Positions 50,444 to 60,086 of a DNA stretch of 64,000 bases are shown here, in pieces. The notes below the pieces were generated by a model that worked only from the letters and a program-made list of their open reading frames with translations, did no database searches and was not told the origin of the DNA. The DNA comes from Amycolatopsis sp. 195334CR (lineage in GTDB: Bacteria > Actinomycetota > Actinomycetes > Mycobacteriales > Pseudonocardiaceae), in contig NZ_JAFJMJ010000002.1 of assembly GCF_017309385.1 (NCBI RefSeq), positions 1,054,001 to 1,118,000 of the forward strand, written 5' to 3'. Position 1 is the stretch's first letter; each line of letters begins with the position of its first letter. The position numbers and the translations under genes are program-made.

Positions 50444-50551
50444 CGCGGTCACGCTCTGGACTGTAAGCCGGAAAGTGCCCGCTGAGCTGGCGGACGCGCC
50501 GTCGGGTGCCTGGAAATCGGCCCTGACCTCGTGCGTGGCACGATGTATCCG

Positions 50552-51631
50552 ATGTCTTCCTCTGCCTCAGCGCCCGCGACCGCCACCGCGCGTCGCGCGC
50601 TGCCCGATGCCCCGTTCCTGCTGGCCGCGCGGGGTGAGCGGCCCGCGAGGCTGCCCGTGTGGTTCATGCGCCAGGCCGGGCGTTCGCTGCCCGAGTACCG
50701 CGAACTGCGCGCGGGCACCGCGATGCTCGACGCCTGCTTCGACCCGGAGATGCTCGCGGAGATCACCCTGCAGCCGGTGCGGCGGCACGGGGTGGACGCG
50801 GCGATCCTGTTCAGCGACATCGTGGTGCCGCTCAAGGCGGCCGGCCTGGACATCGACATCGTGGCGGGCACCGGGCCGGTGGTCGCCAGCCCGGTGCGCG
50901 ACGCCGCCGCCGTGGCCGCGCTGCCCGAACTGGACGCCGAGCAGGTCGTCCCGGTGGCCGAGGGCATCCGCCTGCTGGTCGAGCGGCTCGGCGACACCCC
51001 GCTGATCGGGTTCGCCGGCGCGCCGTTCACGCTGGCCTCCTACCTGATCGAGGGCGGGCCGAGCCGCAACCACGAGCGCACCAAGGCGCTGATGCACTCC
51101 GAGCCCGCGGTGTGGCACGCGCTGGCGGGCAAGCTCGCCGACATCGCGCTCGCCTTCCTGCGCGTGCAGATCGCCGCCGGGGTCGACGCGATCCAGCTGT
51201 TCGACTCGTGGGCGGGCGCGCTCTCGCCGCGTGACTACCGCGAGTTCGTGCTGCCGCATTCGGCGAAGGTGTTCGCCGGGGTGGCCGACGCGGGCGTGCC
51301 GCGCATCCACTTCGGGGTGGGCACCGGGGAACTGCTGTCCGACCTGCGCGACGCCGGTCCGGACGTGGTGGGGGTCGACTGGCGGGTGCCGCTCGACGAG
51401 GCCGTCCGCAGGCTGACCGCCACGCGGCCCGGTTCGGCGCCGGTGGTGCAGGGCAACCTGGACCCGGCGCTGCTGTTCGGCTCGTGGCCGGTGCTCGAGG
51501 CCGAGGTGCGCCGGATCGCCGAGGAGGGCCGCGCGGCCGCCGGGCACATCTTCAACCTGGGGCACGGCGTGCTGCCCGACACCGATCCCGAGGTGATCAC
51601 CCGGGTCGTCGAACTCGTGCACTCGCTTTGA
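50552..51631 (+). CDS. hemE: Uroporphyrinogen decarboxylase
   Basis: 359 residues. The signature [19 protein letters not shown] and the Asp of [17 protein letters not shown] are present, as are [17 protein letters not shown] and [13 protein letters not shown]. It turns uroporphyrinogen III into coproporphyrinogen III in the cytoplasm. I took the ATG at 50552, close to a run of Ser and Ala; ATG at 50543 is an alternative. It leads the operon hemE-hemY-hemQ, with the hemY start overlapping its stop (TTGA). Confidence 0.97.
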
Positions 51632-53046
51632 GCACTCGGGTCGCGGTCGTCGGTGGCGGCATCTCCGGGCTGGCCGCGGCCTACCGGCTGCGGTGCCTGC
51701 TTGGGGCGGACGCCGAGCTGACCGTGTTCGAGTCGACCGGGGCGCCCGGCGGCAAGCTGCGGACCGGCTCCCTGGCGGGACGGCCGTTCGACCTCGGGGC
51801 CGAGGCGTTCCTGGCCCGCCGTCCGGAAGCGGTGGCGCTGGCGCGCGAACTGGATTTCGAGGTGGTGCACCCGACCGGGGCGCGCGCGACCGTGCGGGCC
51901 GGTGGGCAGGCGCGGCAGCTGCCGCCCGGCACGGTCATGGGGGTGCCCGCGAGCGCCGACGCGGTGGCCGGTGTGCTTTCGGCGGAGGGGCTGGCGGCGG
52001 TGGCGGCCGAAGCCGGGTTGCCGCCGGTGGGGTTGCCCGCCGGGGACGTGCCGCTGGGTGGGTTGCTGCGGTCGCGCTTCGGGGACGAACTGGTGGACCG
52101 CCTGGTCGATCCGCTGCTCGGCGGGGTGTACGCCGGGGGAGCGGACGGGCTCGGGCTGCGGGCGACCATGCCGGGGCTGGCGGGCGCGCTCGACCGGGGT
52201 GTGCCGACGCTGACCGAGGCAGCCGCTTCGCTGCTGCCCGCGTCGCCGAGCAGCGCGCCGGTGTTCGGCACGCTCAGTTCCGGGTTGGGCGCGTTGATCG
52301 ACCGGCTGGCCGAGGCGTCGGGTGCGCGGGTGCGGACCGGGACGACGGTCCGCGAGCTGCACCGGCTGGACGGCGGCTGGCGGCTGGTGGTCGGGGCGGC
52401 GGCCGCCGCGCACGCGCCCGAGGAGTCCACTGTGGACTTCGACGCGGTGCTGCTGGCGGTGCCCGCGCCCTCGGCGAGGCGGTTGCTGGACGGGGTCGCC
52501 CCGGCGGCTTCGGCGGCGTTCGGGCAGGTGGAGCTGGCTTCGATGGCGGTGATCGGGCTGGCCCTGCCGCCGGGGACCGAGCTGCCTGACGCGTCGGGCG
52601 TGCTGGTCGGGGCGTCGGAGCGGCGGGCGGACGGCAGGCCGTTCGCGGTCAAGGCGTTCACCTTCTCGGCCAGGAAGTGGGCGCACCACGGGGGCGAGGC
52701 GGTGCTGCTGCGCGGATCGGTCGGCCGGTTCCGGGAGCCGGGCGCGCTGCACGCGGACGACGACGAACTCGTGCGGTTGGTGCTCGACGACCTCGCCGAA
52801 CTGACCGGGGTGCGGGCCGAACCGGTGGACACCGTGGTCACCCGCTGGGGTGGCGGGCTGCCGCAGTACGGCGCGGGGCACACCGAGCTGGTGGCGTCGA
52901 TCGACCGGGCCGTCGGCGAGCTCCCTGGCCTGGAAGTGGCGGGCGCCACGCTGCGCGGCGTCGGCATTCCCGCCTGCGTCGCCACCGCGGACGCCGCCGC
53001 CACGAGGCTCGCGGAGTTTGCGAAGATGGACGCATGGCGCGGCTGA
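51628..53046 (+). CDS. hemY: Coproporphyrinogen III / protoporphyrinogen oxidase, FAD-dependent
   Basis: 472 residues from a TTG start that overlaps the hemE stop (TTGA); no other start lies before the FAD motif [18 protein letters not shown]. It continues with [24 protein letters not shown] and ends with the second FAD contact ([20 protein letters not shown]). In actinobacteria this HemY-type enzyme (also named CgoX) oxidises coproporphyrinogen III to coproporphyrin III, feeding ferrochelatase and then HemQ. A 13-base overlap with hemQ shows tight translational coupling. Confidence 0.93.
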
Positions 53047-53726
53047 ACTACAACGAGCTCAACGACACCATTCGCTACACCGCCTGGTCGGTGTTCCGGG
53101 CCGAACCGGGCCGGTTGCCCGAGGACCGCGGCCCCGCCGCGCGCGAGACCACCGAGTTCCTCGACGGTCTCGAGAGCAAGGGCGTGGTGGTGCGCGGGGT
53201 GTACGACGTGGCCGGCCTGCGGGCCGACGCGGACTACCTGATCTGGTGGCACGCCGAGGAGATCGAGCAGGTCCAGGCCGCCTACAGCGGGTTCCGGCGG
53301 ACGCCGCTGGGCCGGGCTTCGGTGCCGGTGTGGAGCCAGGTCGCGCTGCACCGGCCGGCCGAGTTCAACCGCAGCCACATCCCGGCGTTCCTGGCCGGGG
53401 AGGAGCCGCGGAAGTACGTCTGCGTGTACCCGTTCGTGCGGTCTTACGAGTGGTACCTGCTGCCGGACGAGGAGCGGCGCAAGATGCTCGCCGACCACGG
53501 CAAGGAGGCGCGCGACTACCCGGACGTGCGCGCGAACACGGTGGCTTCGTTCGCGCTGGGTGACTACGAGTGGATCCTCGCCTTCGAGGCGGATGAGTTG
53601 CACCGGATCGTGGACCTGATGCGCCACCTGCGTGGCACGGAGGCCCGGCTGCACGTGCGCGAGGAGATCCCGTTCTACACCGGCACGCGCGTGCCGCCGG
53701 CGGAACTGGTGCAGAACCTGCCGTAG
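53034..53726 (+). CDS. hemQ: Coproheme decarboxylase (HemQ)
   Basis: 230 residues in the chlorite-dismutase fold. Features include [34 protein letters not shown], the catalytic Tyr region [18 protein letters not shown], and the heme-ligand His in [13 protein letters not shown]. HemQ (ChdC) uses peroxide to decarboxylate coproheme III to heme b, the last step of the coproporphyrin-dependent pathway. ATG 53034 lies inside the hemY 3' end. Ferrochelatase is not in this window. Confidence 0.95.
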
Positions 53727-53775: not shown

Positions 53776-54273
53776 ATGGCATTTCTCGAGTTCCACCGCA
53801 AGCATCGCCAGCACCGCAATGACATCGAGGCGCTGTACACGATCTCGACCAAGACGAACCAGCGGGTCGATGTCATCGACCGGAAGGTGTCGTCGGTTCT
53901 TGAGGTTCAGCACGAGCACAGCGCGCAGTTGCGCGGTGTGCAGGCGACGCTGGAGACCCACACGGAGCTGCTGGCCGCACACGAGGCCCGCTTCGACCGC
54001 ATCGACGCCCGCCTCGATGGCCACGACGCTCGCTTCGATCGGATCGACGCCCGGCTCGACCGGATGGACGCCCGCCTCGACGGCCACGACGCCCAGTTCA
54101 AGGCCATCAACGACCGGCTGGATGGCCACGACACGCAGTTCGAGACCATCAACGCCCGCCTGGACGGCCAGTCGGCCATGCTCGACAAGCAGGGCAAGCA
54201 GCTCAACAAACAGGGCGAGCAGCTGAACCAGATCCTCGATCTGTTGCGCACTCAACGGCCCGAAACCAACTGA
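53776..54273 (+). CDS. Coiled-coil protein with 14-residue repeats
   Basis: 165 residues without a membrane segment or signal. After about 65 residues a string of heptad-paired repeats begins: RFDRIDARLDGHDA, RFDRIDARLDRMDA, RLDGHDAQFKAIND, RLDGHDTQFETINA, RLDGQSAMLDKQG, ending in KQLNKQGEQLNQILDLLR. Hydrophobic residues fall at heptad positions, giving a trimeric or dimeric rod, with buried polar residues as in phage-type or DUF1640-like stalks. No catalytic domain is seen. The gene lies 49 bases after hemQ and 6 bases before a CoA-transferase gene. Confidence 0.7.
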   Translation: MAFLEFHRKHRQHRNDIEALYTISTKTNQRVDVIDRKVSSVLEVQHEHSAQLRGVQATLETHTELLAAHEARFDRIDARLDGHDARFDRIDARLDRMDARLDGHDAQFKAINDRLDGHDTQFETINARLDGQSAMLDKQGKQLNKQGEQLNQILDLLRTQRPETN

Positions 54274-54279
54274 GGGAAT

Positions 54280-55650
54280 GTGATCGAAGAAGAACTAGCC
54301 GCGGTCTGGCGGCAGGTGAGTGGTGACAGCCTGCCGCCGGATGCGGGGCCGGTTGGTGGCGGAAGCTCGCCCGGGCTGGTCACCTTCAGTGGTGACGAGT
54401 CTGTGCTGCCCGGGCCGTTCCGGGTGGCGGCGGCCGCGGCGGTGAGTGTGGGGGCGGCAACGCTCGCCGCGGGGGAGTTGCTTCGGGTCCGCGGGATCGA
54501 GCCGCCTTCCGTTGAGGTGGAGTTGCGCCATGCGGCCGCCGCGTTCCACAGTGAGCGCCACCTCAAACTGGACGGCGAGGCGCCCGGCGAGCTCTGGGCG
54601 CCGCTGACCGGGGACTACCTCGCGGCCGACGGGTGGGTTCGGCTGCACTGCAACTACCCGCGCCACGTCTCGGCCGTCTGCTGGGGGCTCGGCGCCGCCG
54701 CCACCAAGGAGGCCATCACCGAGGCGGTCGCCAAGCGGCGCGCCCGGGAGGTGCAGGAGGCGGTGGTCGCGGCCGGTGGCGCCGCGGCGCTCATGCGCAC
54801 CCGCCAGGACTGGCTCAACCACCCGCAGGGCGAGGCCGTCGCCGGGCAGCCGCTCGTCGAGCTCCGGCAGACCGGGGACGCGCCGCCGAAGCGGCTGTTC
54901 GACTCCGACCGCCCGCTCGGCGGGGTCCGCGTGCTCGAACTGACCCACGTCATCGCCGGGCCGGTGGCCGGCCGGGTGCTCGCCGCGCACGGGGCCGACG
55001 TGCTGCACCTCGGCGCCGCGCACCTGCCCCGTATCGATCCACTGTGGATGGACACCGGACTGGGCAAGCGCTCCGCCTTCACCGACCTCACCCAGGACGC
55101 CGGCCGCGCCCGGCTGCGCAAGCTGCTGGCCAGGGCGGACGTCTTCGTCCAGTCCTTCCGCCCCGGCGCGCTGGCCCGCTGGGGCTTCTCGCCCGAGGAG
55201 CTGGCCGACGAGTTCCCCGGTCTGATCACGCTCGACCTCTCCGCCTACGGCTGGCACGGCCCGTGGCGCAACCGCCGCGGGTTCGACAGCCTGGTGCAGC
55301 TGGCCACCGGCATCGCCGCGCACGCCGGGCTCGACCAGCCCCGCCCGCTGCCCGCGCAGGCGCTCGACCACGCCACCGGCTGGCTCGCCGCGGCCACCGT
55401 GATGACCGCGCTGCGCCGGGCGGCCACCGACGGCGGCGGCTGGCGCGGCCAGGTCGCGCTCGCGCACACCGCGGAATGGCTGGAATCACTGGGACGCCGG
55501 GAAATCACCGACACCGGCTACTCGACGGACGGCCTGCTGGCGACGCTGCCCAGCCCGTACGGCGAACTCACCCACGTCACCGTGCCCGGCGCGAATCCAC
55601 AGTGGACGGAGGGCACCCGGCTACCGGGAACGGACCGGCCATCGTGGTAA
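54280..55650 (+). CDS. Class III (CaiB/BaiF) CoA-transferase family protein
   Basis: 456 residues. The N-terminal third is a helical extension not in typical CaiB proteins; the CaiB core begins near residue 210 with LGGVRVLELTHVIAGPVAGR, VLAAHGADVLHLG, then ADVFVQSFRPGALARWGFSP and the probable catalytic Asp in RRGFDSLVQLATGIA near residue 335. It moves CoA between carboxylic acids by a covalent Asp mechanism; substrates unknown. The enzyme is shorter after the catalytic Asp than usual. Its last 30 bases overlap the convergent gene at 55621-55962. Confidence 0.82.
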   Translation: MIEEELAAVWRQVSGDSLPPDAGPVGGGSSPGLVTFSGDESVLPGPFRVAAAAAVSVGAATLAAGELLRVRGIEPPSVEVELRHAAAAFHSERHLKLDGEAPGELWAPLTGDYLAADGWVRLHCNYPRHVSAVCWGLGAAATKEAITEAVAKRRAREVQEAVVAAGGAAALMRTRQDWLNHPQGEAVAGQPLVELRQTGDAPPKRLFDSDRPLGGVRVLELTHVIAGPVAGRVLAAHGADVLHLGAAHLPRIDPLWMDTGLGKRSAFTDLTQDAGRARLRKLLARADVFVQSFRPGALARWGFSPEELADEFPGLITLDLSAYGWHGPWRNRRGFDSLVQLATGIAAHAGLDQPRPLPAQALDHATGWLAAATVMTALRRAATDGGGWRGQVALAHTAEWLESLGRREITDTGYSTDGLLATLPSPYGELTHVTVPGANPQWTEGTRLPGTDRPSW

Positions 55651-55962
55651 CCACCGGCGCGGCCGCTTCAGCTCGCCCCTGGCGGTGAGCCAGGCCGCGA
55701 AGTCCTCCGCGTCCTGCCGCATGCGCACCCCTTCTTCGCGGGGGTGCGCCTCCGCGTATTCGCCGAACAGCGGGACGAAGCGATCACCCAGTTCCCGCGC
55801 CAGTTCGGGCCGCAGGTACTCGACGATCCGGCGCCGCTTCCCGCGCAGCGCCCGCACCTCGACCTCCACCCGGCCCGGATCGAACCCGGCCGGGGCGGCG
55901 CCCCCGGCGAGCAGCGCCCGCAGCAGCTCGGCCTGCTGCGCCGCCAGCCGTTCCCGGCTCAC
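55621..55962 (-). CDS. Small DUF692-partner protein (SCO6045-like?)
   Basis: 113 residues from the GTG at 55962, which overlaps the DUF692 stop (GTGA). It is helical and charged: RLAAQQAELLRALLAGG, FDPGRVEVEVRALRGKRRRI, YLRPELARELGDRFVPLFGE, GVRMRQDAEDFAAWLTARGE. The pattern recalls the C-terminal DUF2063-type helper that pairs with DUF692 enzymes (MbnC, BufC), and the Streptomyces protein SCO6045; both identifications are from memory. The role may be to bring substrate to the enzyme. Its 3' end overlaps the CoA-transferase gene by 30 bases on the other strand. Confidence 0.65.
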   Translation of the reverse strand: MSRERLAAQQAELLRALLAGGAAPAGFDPGRVEVEVRALRGKRRRIVEYLRPELARELGDRFVPLFGEYAEAHPREEGVRMRQDAEDFAAWLTARGELKRPRRWLPRWPVRSR

Positions 55963-56768
55963 GCCTCGACCACCGCGCGGATCGCCGCCAGCTCGGCGGC
56001 CAGTTCGGCGTCGGTGGGGTAGGCGTCGTCGCGTTCCAGCAGCACGCCCGGCGGGTCCACTCTGGACCGCAGCTCGCCGAGCAGGTCGAGCACCTGCGGC
56101 GGCACCGCCTCGGCGTGCGTGTCGTGGTAGACGCCGTGGTGCTCCTCGCCACCGGCCACGTGCACGTAGGCCAGCCGGTCCAGCGGGATCTCGTCCAGGA
56201 AGGACACCGGGTCGCTGCCCAGGTTCCGCGCGTTCGCGTACAGGTTCGCCACGTCCACGATGAGCAGGCAGCCGGTGCGGTCGGTCAGCTCGGTCAGGAA
56301 CCGCGCCTCGCTCAGCTCCGGATCGGGCCACTCCAGCAGCGCCGCGATGTTCTCCAGCGCGAACGGCACCCCGAGGATCGACTGCGCCAGCTTCACGTTG
56401 TCCACCAGCACGTCCAGCGCCTCGCGCGTGCGGGGGAGCGGGATCAGGTGCCCCGCGTCCAGCCCGCCCGCGCGCACGAAGCACACGTGGTCGCTGGCCA
56501 CCGGCGCGCCGAGCGCCGCGGTCAGCTCGGCCAGGTGCTCGACCCGCCGGGTGTCCAGTTCCTCGGCGCCACCAAGGGAAAGCGACACCGCGTGCGGCAG
56601 CACCGGCATCCCGCGATCGCGCAGCGCGGTCAGCGTCGCGGGCAGGGCGCCCGGCTGGAGGTTCTCGGCGATCACCTCGACCCAGTCGACCCCGGGCAGG
56701 CGCGGCACGGAGAGGTCGAGTTCGGGCCGCCAGCCGATCCCGACGCCGAACCGGGGCAGCTCAGCCAC
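55959..56768 (-). CDS. DUF692 (MNIO) multinuclear iron enzyme
   Basis: 269 residues in a TIM barrel. The metal-ligand set of the family is complete: His59 in LPHAVSLSLG, His94 in SDHVCF, Glu139 in LENIAALL, Asp172 and Asn175 in LIVDVANLYANARNLG, His203 in YVHVAGG, Asp216 and His218 in HDTHAEAV, and Glu245 in LLERDDAYP. Known members (MbnB, TglH, ChrH, BufB) oxidise Cys or other residues in peptides with two or three irons. The GTG at 56768 lies inside the last codons of the Cys/Gly-tailed membrane protein gene (GTGGCTGA), so the two are made together. Substrate is inferred to be those tails. Confidence 0.85.
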   Translation of the reverse strand: MAELPRFGVGIGWRPELDLSVPRLPGVDWVEVIAENLQPGALPATLTALRDRGMPVLPHAVSLSLGGAEELDTRRVEHLAELTAALGAPVASDHVCFVRAGGLDAGHLIPLPRTREALDVLVDNVKLAQSILGVPFALENIAALLEWPDPELSEARFLTELTDRTGCLLIVDVANLYANARNLGSDPVSFLDEIPLDRLAYVHVAGGEEHHGVYHDTHAEAVPPQVLDLLGELRSRVDPPGVLLERDDAYPTDAELAAELAAIRAVVEA

Positions 56769-57663
56769 CGCAGCCGCCACAGCCACCGCACCCGCCGCCA
56801 CCGCCGCCGCACGACGAGCCGCCGCCACCGCCGTCCCCGCCGGACGAACCGCCCGCGGACGGGGCCGCCAGCGCGGTCCGCATCTCCTCGTCCGGGTACA
56901 TCATCATGCCGCCCAGCGCGACCGCGCCCGCCGCACCGGCGAGCATCGGCACCGCGGCCGAGGACCGGGCCGGGCCGCCGCCGGCCGAAGCGGACTGGCG
57001 CGACTGCCAACTGCGGGCGCTCGCCAGCTGTACCGAACCCTGTGCGGTCGGCCGGACCGGCGGCGCCGACTTGGCCACCTTGGCCGCGACGAAGGTGGCG
57101 ATCGCGGCCGCCACCACCAGGAAGACCAGGAAGCCGACCGGACGGTCCCGCACGATGCCGTTGACCAGGCGGAGCACGCCGAGCGCGAGGATCAGGAGGT
57201 AGAGCACGTACACCGCGCGCCGCAGGACGACGCGCCCGCCCGTGGGCCGGATCAGGCCCGCGTCGGTCAGGTGCTTGGTCATCCCGCGGAGCACCTGTGA
57301 CTTGCGCAGTTCCCGGCGCAGGTCGGGCATCTTCGAACTGCTCCGGCGCACGATCACCTTGTGCACGGCCAGTTCCACCGGATCGGCGGGCGGATTGCCC
57401 ACCCCGCGGACCCGGCCGGTGCTGTCCGCGCGGGCCAGCCCGCGTTCGAGCAGCGACGCCACCGCGGTGTCGACGACCCGGTCGGCGCCACCGGCCAGGA
57501 ACGCCACCTCGTAGACGTTGCCGGGGGTGTACGCGGTGGCCGCGCGGTTCCCGCCGGACGCGAGCGCGAGGCGGCCCACCAGGGCCACCGCCAGCGGCAG
57601 GGCCAGCAGGAACGCGTACAGCACCAGGAAGTCCGGACCAGAGAGTCCCCAGGGTTCGTCCAT
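56761..57663 (-). CDS. TIGR04222-type membrane protein with Cys/Gly tail, copy 1
   Basis: 300 residues. It opens with PWGLSGPDFLVLYAFLL, shared in pattern with the two copies upstream. Membrane segments lie at about 10-33, 155-176 and 181-203, with a soluble domain between the first two (VAFLAGGADRVVDTAVASLL, RGLARADSTGRVRGVG) and a short conserved YPDEE near residue 255. The C-terminus is 30 residues almost wholly Gly and Ser with four Cys spaced CGGCGGC plus one earlier Cys. The ATG at 57663 has GGAGG upstream. The last codons overlap the DUF692 start, suggesting the tail is its substrate. Confidence 0.85.
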   Translation of the reverse strand: MDEPWGLSGPDFLVLYAFLLALPLAVALVGRLALASGGNRAATAYTPGNVYEVAFLAGGADRVVDTAVASLLERGLARADSTGRVRGVGNPPADPVELAVHKVIVRRSSSKMPDLRRELRKSQVLRGMTKHLTDAGLIRPTGGRVVLRRAVYVLYLLILALGVLRLVNGIVRDRPVGFLVFLVVAAAIATFVAAKVAKSAPPVRPTAQGSVQLASARSWQSRQSASAGGGPARSSAAVPMLAGAAGAVALGGMMMYPDEEMRTALAAPSAGGSSGGDGGGGGSSCGGGGGGCGGCGGCGG

Positions 57664-57742
57664 CACTCGGCCCTCCAACCGATCGAAGCTGCTCGGAGAT
57701 TAGGCCACCGCACGGCGGCGCAGGGCCGTATTTCCGCCGACG

Positions 57743-58666
57743 TCAGCCGCCGCCTCCGCCACCGCCGCCACAACTGCCGCCGCAGCCGGAACCGCAGCCG
57801 CCACCGTCACCGCCGAGGCCGCCCTCGCCGGGTGTTCCCGGGCCGAACGCCCCGACGGCCAGCGTCCCGGCGATCACCGCGGCGCTGCTGGTGCCCGGGT
57901 AGCGGCGGCGCGAGCGGTTGAACGTCAGCGCCACCGCCTCCGCGACCTCGGGATCGGGGTAGGCGCCCAGCCCGCCGTTCAGCGCGACCTCGCGGGTGAC
58001 CCCGGTGAGCGTCTGCCGCGAGGCACGCAGCACCTGCTTGCCCAGCGCGGTCTTGCGCAGTCGCGGTCGCCGCCGGGCGGGCGCCAGCGCGGCGAAGGCG
58101 CCCCCGGCCGCGACGAAGATCAGGAAGCTGAGGAAGCCGATCGGCGTGCTCGTGGTGACCACGGCGAACCAGCGCACCAGGCCGAACAACGTGATCACGC
58201 CGTAGAGCACGGTCACGCCGAACCAGATCACGTGCGTGGGCAGCTCCGGCTCGATCAGCCTGCGGAGTTCGAGTTCGCGGCGGATCTCGGTCAGCTCCGG
58301 CGACTTCAGCGCGGTGACGGCGGCGTCGTTCGGGGTGGTGCCGAGGTAGCCGGTCTCGAAGATGACGCGCTCGAGATCGTCCTCCGGCTCGCTGCCGACC
58401 GACCGGAGGGTTCCGGCGCTCTCGGCACGCAGGCTGCCGCGGTCGAGCAGGGCGGCGATGGCCGTCTCGACCGCGCGCAGCGGCCCGCGGGCCAGGTAGG
58501 CGACGTGGTAGTCGCTGGGCAACGGCGAGTCGTCCGGTTCGGAACCGTGCCGGCGCACCTGCCGGACGGCCAGCGTGGCCAGCACGCCCAGCAACGCCGG
58601 TGCCACCAGCAGCGCCAGGTACAACCCGAGGAACCCGGATCCGGACAGGCCCCAGGTCTCGTTCAT
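57743..58666 (-). CDS. TIGR04222-type membrane protein with Cys/Gly tail, copy 2
   Basis: 307 residues with the same N-terminus (TWGLSGSGFLGLYLALL), the same soluble domain (VAYLARGPLRAVETAIAALL, RAESAGTLRSVG) and membrane segments near 8-28, 150-172 and 178-198. Near the end are YPDPEVAEA and RYPGTSSAAVIAG, then a Gly-rich tail with three Cys (CGSGCGGSC) and eight final Gly. It is 3 bases after copy 3 (TGAGAGATG) and 79 bases before copy 1. It differs clearly from its paralogues in the middle, so the duplication is old. Confidence 0.85.
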   Translation of the reverse strand: MNETWGLSGSGFLGLYLALLVAPALLGVLATLAVRQVRRHGSEPDDSPLPSDYHVAYLARGPLRAVETAIAALLDRGSLRAESAGTLRSVGSEPEDDLERVIFETGYLGTTPNDAAVTALKSPELTEIRRELELRRLIEPELPTHVIWFGVTVLYGVITLFGLVRWFAVVTTSTPIGFLSFLIFVAAGGAFAALAPARRRPRLRKTALGKQVLRASRQTLTGVTREVALNGGLGAYPDPEVAEAVALTFNRSRRRYPGTSSAAVIAGTLAVGAFGPGTPGEGGLGGDGGGCGSGCGGSCGGGGGGGG

Positions 58667-58669
58667 CTC

Positions 58670-59572
58670 TCAGCCTCCTCCGCCGCCACCACCGCAACCG
58701 CCGCCCCCGCCACCGCAGCTGCTGCCACCCGACGAGGACGAACAGCCGCTGCCGCCCGACGACGAGCAACCACCACTCACGATGGCACCACCGGCGTAGC
58801 CACCGCACGAAGAATTCGACCGCCGCCGCCGCGGCGGCCGGGGCGGCGAAGTCAGTCCCAGCACCAGCGCACTGGCGATCTCGCGGTCCGGGTACGACGC
58901 CAGGCCGCGCTCGGCCACCGCGCCCGCTGCGCCGGGGAAGTCGTCGGTCCGGGCCCGCGCGCCCGCCCGCGTCGGCTTGTCCTTGCCGCGTCCCCGCAGC
59001 ACCGACGAGACCACCAGCCCGACTCCGACCGCCAGCAGCATCAGCACCAGATAGCCGACCGGGAAGCCCCCCTCGACGCCGTCGGCGAACCGGATCAGGC
59101 CGAGCAGCAGCACGGCACCGTACAGACCGGCCGCGGCGAGGCACACCGCCCGGTGCCGCCCGGCGTCGACCAGCAGGCCCCGGGTGACCAGGCCCTTCCG
59201 CAGGGAGCGCATCGCGGCGGTGTCGGCGAGGACGGTGACCAGTGCTCCCGATCGCCGCCCCGACGCACCGGTGGTGCTGGCCAGCGCAAGCCGTTCCAGC
59301 TGGGTCGCGCCCGCCCGGCCGGTGGCGTGCAGGGTGCCCGACGAGTCGACCCGCAGCAGACCGCGGTCGACCAGCCCGGCGAGCACGGTTTCGGCGGCGC
59401 GCCGCGGCCCGCCGCGCAGGAAGGCGGCCTGGTGCACGTTGAGCTGCCCGGTCTCGCCGCCGCCCGAGCGAACCCGCAGGAGTCCGACGACCAGCACGAG
59501 TGTGGGCACGACGATGCACCCGGCGTACAACGCGAGAAAAGCCGGGCCCGAAAGCCCCCACGGATCACCCAT
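58670..59572 (-). CDS. TIGR04222-type membrane protein with Cys/Gly tail, copy 3
   Basis: 300 residues; first gene of the MNIO operon. N-terminus PWGLSGPAFLALYAGCIV, soluble domain (AAFLRGGPRRAAETVLAGLV, RVDSSGTLHATG), membrane segments near 8-30, 150-170 and 178-195, YPDREIASA near residue 240. The tail is the longest of the three, about 40 residues of Gly and Ser with four Cys and a run of seven terminal Gly. The ATG at 59572 is 72 bases after msrB, both on the minus strand, so readthrough from msrB is possible. Confidence 0.85.
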   Translation of the reverse strand: MGDPWGLSGPAFLALYAGCIVVPTLVLVVGLLRVRSGGGETGQLNVHQAAFLRGGPRRAAETVLAGLVDRGLLRVDSSGTLHATGRAGATQLERLALASTTGASGRRSGALVTVLADTAAMRSLRKGLVTRGLLVDAGRHRAVCLAAAGLYGAVLLLGLIRFADGVEGGFPVGYLVLMLLAVGVGLVVSSVLRGRGKDKPTRAGARARTDDFPGAAGAVAERGLASYPDREIASALVLGLTSPPRPPRRRRSNSSCGGYAGGAIVSGGCSSSGGSGCSSSSGGSSCGGGGGGCGGGGGGG

Positions 59573-59644: not shown

Positions 59645-60067
59645 TTACGGGTTGGGTACCAGTTTCAGCGAGATCGAGTTGATGCAGTACCGCTGGTCGG
59701 TCGGCGTGTCGTAGCCCTCGCCCTCGAACACGTGCCCGAGGTGGCTGTGGCACGAGGCGCACAGCACCTCGATGCGCACCATGCCCATGGTGCGGTCCTC
59801 GCGGAGCAGCACCGCGTCGGAGTCGGCGGGGTCGTAGAACGACGGCCAGCCGCAGTGGCTCTCGAACTTGGTGTCGCTGCGGAACAACTCGGCTCCACAG
59901 GCACGGCACTCGTAGACGCCGGTGGTCTTGGTGTCGGTGTACTCGCCGGTGAACGGGCGTTCGGTGCCGGCCTCGCGGAGCACCTGGTACTCCTCGGGAC
60001 CGAGCTGCTCCCGCCACTCCTGCTCGGACTTCACCACGCGGGGAGTCGCGCCGACGACGGGTTTCAT
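59645..60067 (-). CDS. msrB: Peptide-methionine (R)-S-oxide reductase
   Basis: 140 residues from the ATG at 60067 (GTG starts at 60076 and 60085 are alternatives, the former with GGAG). Zinc is held by CRACG and CASCH; the catalytic Cys lies in QRYCINSISL, and the family motif RSDTKFESHCGWPSFYDP is intact. It reduces R-methionine sulfoxide with thioredoxin. It is conserved in this hemQ-region neighbourhood of actinobacteria. 19 bases separate it from the small membrane protein gene upstream. Confidence 0.93.
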   Translation of the reverse strand: MKPVVGATPRVVKSEQEWREQLGPEEYQVLREAGTERPFTGEYTDTKTTGVYECRACGAELFRSDTKFESHCGWPSFYDPADSDAVLLREDRTMGMVRIEVLCASCHSHLGHVFEGEGYDTPTDQRYCINSISLKLVPNP

Positions 60068-60086
60068 ACCTTTCACGTTCTCCACG

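Follow-up and report, generated by a model that had tools for sequence, protein, structure and literature searches.

Organization of the locus

We analyzed a window of 64,000 nucleotides from the soil actinobacterium Amycolatopsis sp. 195334CR (genome 9.9 Mb; contig NZ_JAFJMJ010000002.1, positions 1,054,001 to 1,118,000), in which three tandem paralogous genes for TIGR04222 membrane proteins with cysteine-bearing C-terminal tails (A, B, and C) are followed by genes for an enzyme of the MNIO (DUF692) family and a small protein that is likely its partner:

58670..59572, minus strand: TIGR04222 membrane protein A; 300 amino acids (aa); Gly/Ser tail with 5 Cys; NCBIfam match
57743..58666, minus strand: TIGR04222 membrane protein B; 307 aa; tail with 3 Cys; NCBIfam match
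56761..57663, minus strand: TIGR04222 membrane protein C; 300 aa; 4-Cys tail ending CGGCGGCGG; NCBIfam match, AlphaFold2 model
55959..56768, minus strand: MNIO (DUF692, PF05114) enzyme; 269 aa from the GTG at 56768; all nine iron ligands present
55621..55962, minus strand: DUF2063-like, likely MNIO partner; 113 aa; GTGA overlap with the MNIO gene

The membrane proteins score 117 (A), 98 (B), and 124 (C) bits against TIGR04222 (NCBIfam cut-off 43) and are the only matches above that cut-off in the whole genome; the window MNIO is likewise its only MNIO match. An earlier note on this DNA, made from its letters alone, described three tandem paralogues with a WGLSG start and three membrane segments. 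This description holds: W-G-L-S-G occupies residues 5–9 in all three proteins, and the AlphaFold2 model of protein C (mean predicted local distance difference test score, pLDDT, 85.4) contains three long helices (residues 9–36, 142–171, and 177–199), while its tail (269–300) lies mostly below a pLDDT of 50. The note's count of three or four tail cysteines is correct for B (3) and C (4) and one short for A (5), as counted over the last 75 residues. Protein C is counted here from the ATG at 57663; the listed open reading frame begins at a TTG at 57678. The bases read at both junctions confirm the reported gene overlaps, of eight bases between C and the MNIO gene (plus strand 56761–56768, tcagccac, that is, GTGGCTGA) and of four bases between the MNIO and partner genes (55959–55962, tcac, that is, GTGA).

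The enzyme matches PF05114 at 273.8 bits (cut-off 25). The TglH ligands given in the available part of PMC10880893 (H71, H107, E151, D184, N187, H216, D229, H231, and E258; chain 8hci_D) align with H, H, E, D, N, H, D, H, and E in the window MNIO, bearing out the full ligand set that had been claimed for it, and these nine columns are invariant across 15 aligned sequences, the window enzyme among them. One MNIO match in another genome (G533:C1:396224-396998) is split in three pieces and looks like a broken gene or the result of sequencing errors.

The small helical partner that had been described is likewise recovered, as a four-helix model (pLDDT 90.1) of the 113-aa protein. A Pfam scan returned no match for the window partner, and weak DUF2063 matches for 29 of 71 relatives. 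The gene lies directly after that of the MNIO and its product is DUF2063-like below the Pfam signature, which fits the definition of a PME-type 2 protein; a 115-aa partner from Saccharothrix is shown as such in the available part of Antoine et al. (2025; PMC12452194). A partner was present in 55/55 and 78/80 sampled loci, which were selected for closeness to the window MNIO; that paper, as far as available, puts the share of TIGR04222 clusters with a partner at 10% or more and describes many as seemingly lacking it. Natural fusions of the partner gene also occur in the sampled loci. Family, fold, and these fusions together indicate that the small protein is likely the MNIO partner. At three loci (L082–L084), the partner match spans only about the first half, roughly 45–50 residues.

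Cysteine tails and their occurrence with MNIO genes

The pairing of TIGR04222 proteins, as substrates, with MNIO enzymes is already in print as a prediction: Antoine et al. (2025), in the part available, propose subsets of these proteins as MNIO substrates and describe TIGR04222–MNIO–PME-type 2 clusters with the same three parts, mostly in Actinomycetota and with a Cys-rich C-terminal tail. The earlier note was right in its observation, and its core interpretation is plausible. To this we add a probable change in the side of the membrane on which the tails lie, a partner that is nearly constant across the sampled loci and shows natural fusions, and a second carrier of a similar tail. We put at about even chances the reading in which the disordered Gly/Ser/Cys tails of the three membrane proteins are cytosolic substrates of the MNIO, oxidized on Cys to form a metal site. 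Of this reading, the order of the genes, their families, the iron ligands, the co-occurrence, the partner fusions, and the Cys contexts are observed; several indirect lines speak for the identity of the partner and for a cytosolic tail; modification of the tails, its chemical kind, and metal binding are inferred.

In relatives, the two families co-occur strongly, beyond what chance would give, and the pairing held overall, with exceptions in both directions; the note had named a lack of such co-occurrence in other genomes as refuting its proposal. Among 298 genomes sampled from the order, 101 contained both families, 5 MNIO only, 18 TIGR04222 above cut-off only, and 174 neither; among 296 genomes sampled from the phylum, the corresponding counts were 10, 5, 1, and 280. 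Kinship among genomes inflates the p values of such co-occurrence. Seventeen of the 18 TIGR04222-only genomes in the order belong to a single family (f84), and 12 further genomes had a TIGR04222 match below cut-off and no MNIO.

Across 195 tails (a set that was not dereplicated), the median length was 40 residues and the median Cys count 5; S or G precedes 967/992 tail Cys and G or S follows 974/995, the most frequent Cys spacing is 6, and 88 tails end in CGG. It is very improbable that the tails reflect low-complexity drift of a DUF2207-like tail and lack any special function. DUF2207 relatives do also have Gly-rich ends; however, two tail Cys columns are retained in at least 90% of 59 sequences, and a similar tail recurs on an unrelated anchor (below). 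Furthermore, of 13 DUF2207 relatives ending in GGSW, one (L208) has a single Cys within its final 30 residues and the other 12 have none, unlike the window tails.

The proposal that the tails are MNIO substrates is partly supported, by co-occurrence in relatives, by the likely partner, and by a tail with at least two Cys in 46/46 picked MNIO loci of the order sample. Several observations weigh against it. The 46 loci represent 45 of the 106 MNIO genomes of the order sample, its five MNIO-only genomes not among them, and co-occurrence scoring took the nine best candidates in most genomes, such that TIGR04222 proteins may be missed. Five Streptomyces genomes (G193 and G023 by inference; G584–G586 by way of named loci) have an MNIO and partner without any TIGR04222 match. 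Four of the 18 MNIO-less genomes (G468, G511, G555, and G570) retain two tail Cys; at four loci (L072–L075) the nearby TIGR04222 protein has no Gly/Cys tail; and some MNIO loci contain Cys-free TIGR04222 paralogues. No metal-resistance genes were recognized in four loci, two of them from Mycobacteriaceae, where gene starts were viewed by eye without a family search. Away from the MNIO there are both extra Cys-tailed copies (e.g., L054–L060 and L085) and, elsewhere, Cys-free ones (L046–L053).

Some of these exceptions would suit an account in which plain-Cys tails bind metal or perform redox chemistry and the MNIO, a mere genomic neighbor, acts elsewhere. The MNIO kept in the five Streptomyces genomes without TIGR04222 and the tail Cys kept in four without MNIO both favor it, as do G684 (1420 contigs, 95% complete) and G748 (95% complete, 6% contamination), each with a Cys-tailed single-helix protein of the kind described below and no MNIO match. 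However, the tight co-occurrence, the gene overlaps, and the consistency of the Cys tail in the picked loci all tell against the neighbor account, which we consider rather improbable.

A second carrier of a similar tail

Genome G023, with MNIO and partner and no TIGR04222 match, yielded through a pattern match a protein without any Pfam or NCBIfam match:

L252:2218-2553 (G023): 111-aa single-helix protein; one hydrophobic helix, Arg-rich stretch, His/Gly repeats, end SSCGGGGGCGGGS

Members of this family of about 111 aa (L252, L254–L283; genus inferred to be Streptomyces) mostly share a WWAGG-like motif, His/Gly repeats, and a Gly/Ser/Cys tail. The protein was matched in 69 of 199 genomes of this inferred genus, a mixed count in which at least one match (G622) sits at Cys-tailed TIGR04222 proteins (L286), and from a search that scored 23 candidates per genome and therefore missed relatives. 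All of the best 30 matches have 4–6 tail Cys, and in 30/30 of them lysine plus arginine (K+R) counts are higher after the helix than before it (mean 7.2 vs. 0.3), placing the tail probably inside. An MNIO match occurs in 187/199 sampled genomes of the inferred genus, so that presence or absence cannot test a link to the single-helix protein (p 0.22).

These data raise the possibility, which we hold tentatively and with more doubt than assent, that actinobacteria attach the Cys tail, as a portable module, to two or more unrelated anchors in the inner membrane (the TIGR04222/DUF2207_C-like proteins and the Streptomyces-type single-helix His/Cys-tailed protein of about 111 aa) and that MNIO enzymes modify it in the cytosol both in cis and in trans. 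If so, MNIOs would not solely be makers of secreted peptides; they would also modify resident membrane proteins into a cytosol-facing metal site.

Tail orientation, proposed modification, and neighboring genes

Several indirect lines, five in all, suggest that the tails probably face the cytosol and not the outside. First, counting K+R on either side of the three helices favors an N-out, domain-in, tail-in arrangement in 48/48 evaluable proteins, and in 56/56 of a second, partly overlapping set; K/R are nearly absent ahead of the first helix and abundant behind it, which looks unlike a signal peptide. Second, the TIGR04222 domain and hairpin show remote kinship to DUF2207_C: 7/59 members match (best 1.1e-5), profile comparison gives 93.4% one way and 93.2% the other, and a DUF2207_C search also retrieved, below cut-off, the TIGR04222 protein L213 (E 9e-4). 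The window proteins themselves fall below the DUF2207_C cut-off of 33, with A alone listed (11.1 bits). Many DUF2207 proteins share the Gly-rich tail; they differ in an extra N-terminal domain, which the DUF2207 protein of this same genome carries before its DUF2207_C-like part, and in a start that by eye resembles a signal peptide. Third, none of the 13 homologues located among the 17 from f84 has the hairpin; some keep a Gly-rich tail and others do not, and seven have one weak hydrophobic stretch (average 1.38–1.64), which coincides with the first helix of the domain in six and with the motif preceding the tail in the seventh. Fourth, the protein C model has, beside its three long helices, only a short helix (residues 244–251) where a fourth crossing would fall. 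The fifth line is the probable inside tail of the single-helix carriers.

The available part of PMC12452194 instead places the TIGR04222 domains and tails outside, in the periplasm, a model in which bufferin-like tails would receive their modification no later than insertion and serve as metal buffers outside the cell. In addition to being stated in print, this placement could draw on 35/56 sequences whose tail is preceded by a moderately hydrophobic stretch; if this stretch crosses the membrane as a fourth segment, the tail is outside, which charge counts are unable to exclude. Both points tell against a cytosolic tail. However, hydrophobicity at this place is absent in the other 21/56, a similar motif is present in homologues without the hairpin, and both the eight-residue helix of the protein C model and the charge asymmetry of the single-helix carriers are at odds with an outside tail. 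We therefore regard the extracytoplasmic model as unlikely.

Under the cytosolic reading, the N-terminus would lie outside and the small folded, remotely DUF2207_C-like domain inside, followed by a two-helix hairpin that would return the tail to the cytosol, where the MNIO and its partner reside. There the enzyme may oxidize tail Cys flanked on both sides by S or G (S/G-Cys-G/S), with a 5-thiooxazole-type group, known from the bufferin branch of MNIOs, as the likeliest product. The modified tail could then offer copper or another soft metal a site tethered to the membrane or, as the note suggested, take part in redox control. The available part of PMC12452194 places MNIO enzymes of the TIGR04222 kind near those of bufferins, in agreement with BufB being the best-scoring NCBIfam MNIO model for the window enzyme; its 196.4 bits, below the cut-off of 310, nonetheless count against the cytosolic-substrate reading (MbnB: 45.9 bits, below 325). 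FonB, as described in the available part of PMC12668002, forms 5-thiooxazole. The small residue after Cys in the 195 tails would suit it, but FonB substrates present Cys in other contexts, which makes the product here a guess.

By score, bufferins and captophorins represent the closest MNIO branch, with a small residue after Cys in both those and the window tails (PMC12452194 and PMC12668002, as available); the captophorin product is a 5-thiooxazole on Cys absorbing at about 305 nm. Their precursors carry Sec signal peptides and are served by DUF2063-RRE partners, unlike the membrane proteins and 113-aa partner described here. In the methanobactin (MbnB/MbnC) and TglH/TglI systems, the TglH iron ligands align with the window MNIO and the predicted partner structure appears to resemble MbnC; however, the precursors are short and free, whereas the window tails sit on membrane proteins. 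Modification of these tails in the cytosol would mean that the MNIO family works on permanent membrane proteins, and the side on which the tail lies would decide whether the product protects the cytosol or the exterior.

Further genes of the window flank the system:

59645..60085, minus strand: msrB; same strand as A, 72 bases upstream of A; TIGR00357 match
50531..53726, plus strand: hemE, hemG-type oxidase, and hemQ; gene names checked by family search
53776-54273: 165-aa protein with repeated segments; weak coiled-coil family matches; between hemQ and a CoA-transferase gene

The window MsrB scores 163.9 bits against TIGR00357 (cut-off 113). Its gene lies near 43/50 Pseudonocardiaceae loci and 0/30 others, and is thus a family-level neighbor outside the core system. 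The hem genes hemE, hemG, and hemQ are often close to the MNIO system in Pseudonocardiaceae, as are hemQ and hemG in Streptomyces (window 50531–53726; L071–L077 and L155–L185); within the fetched stretch, hemQ or hemG was found at 27/45 full-length Pseudonocardiaceae, 18/19 Streptomyces, and 0/4 other loci.
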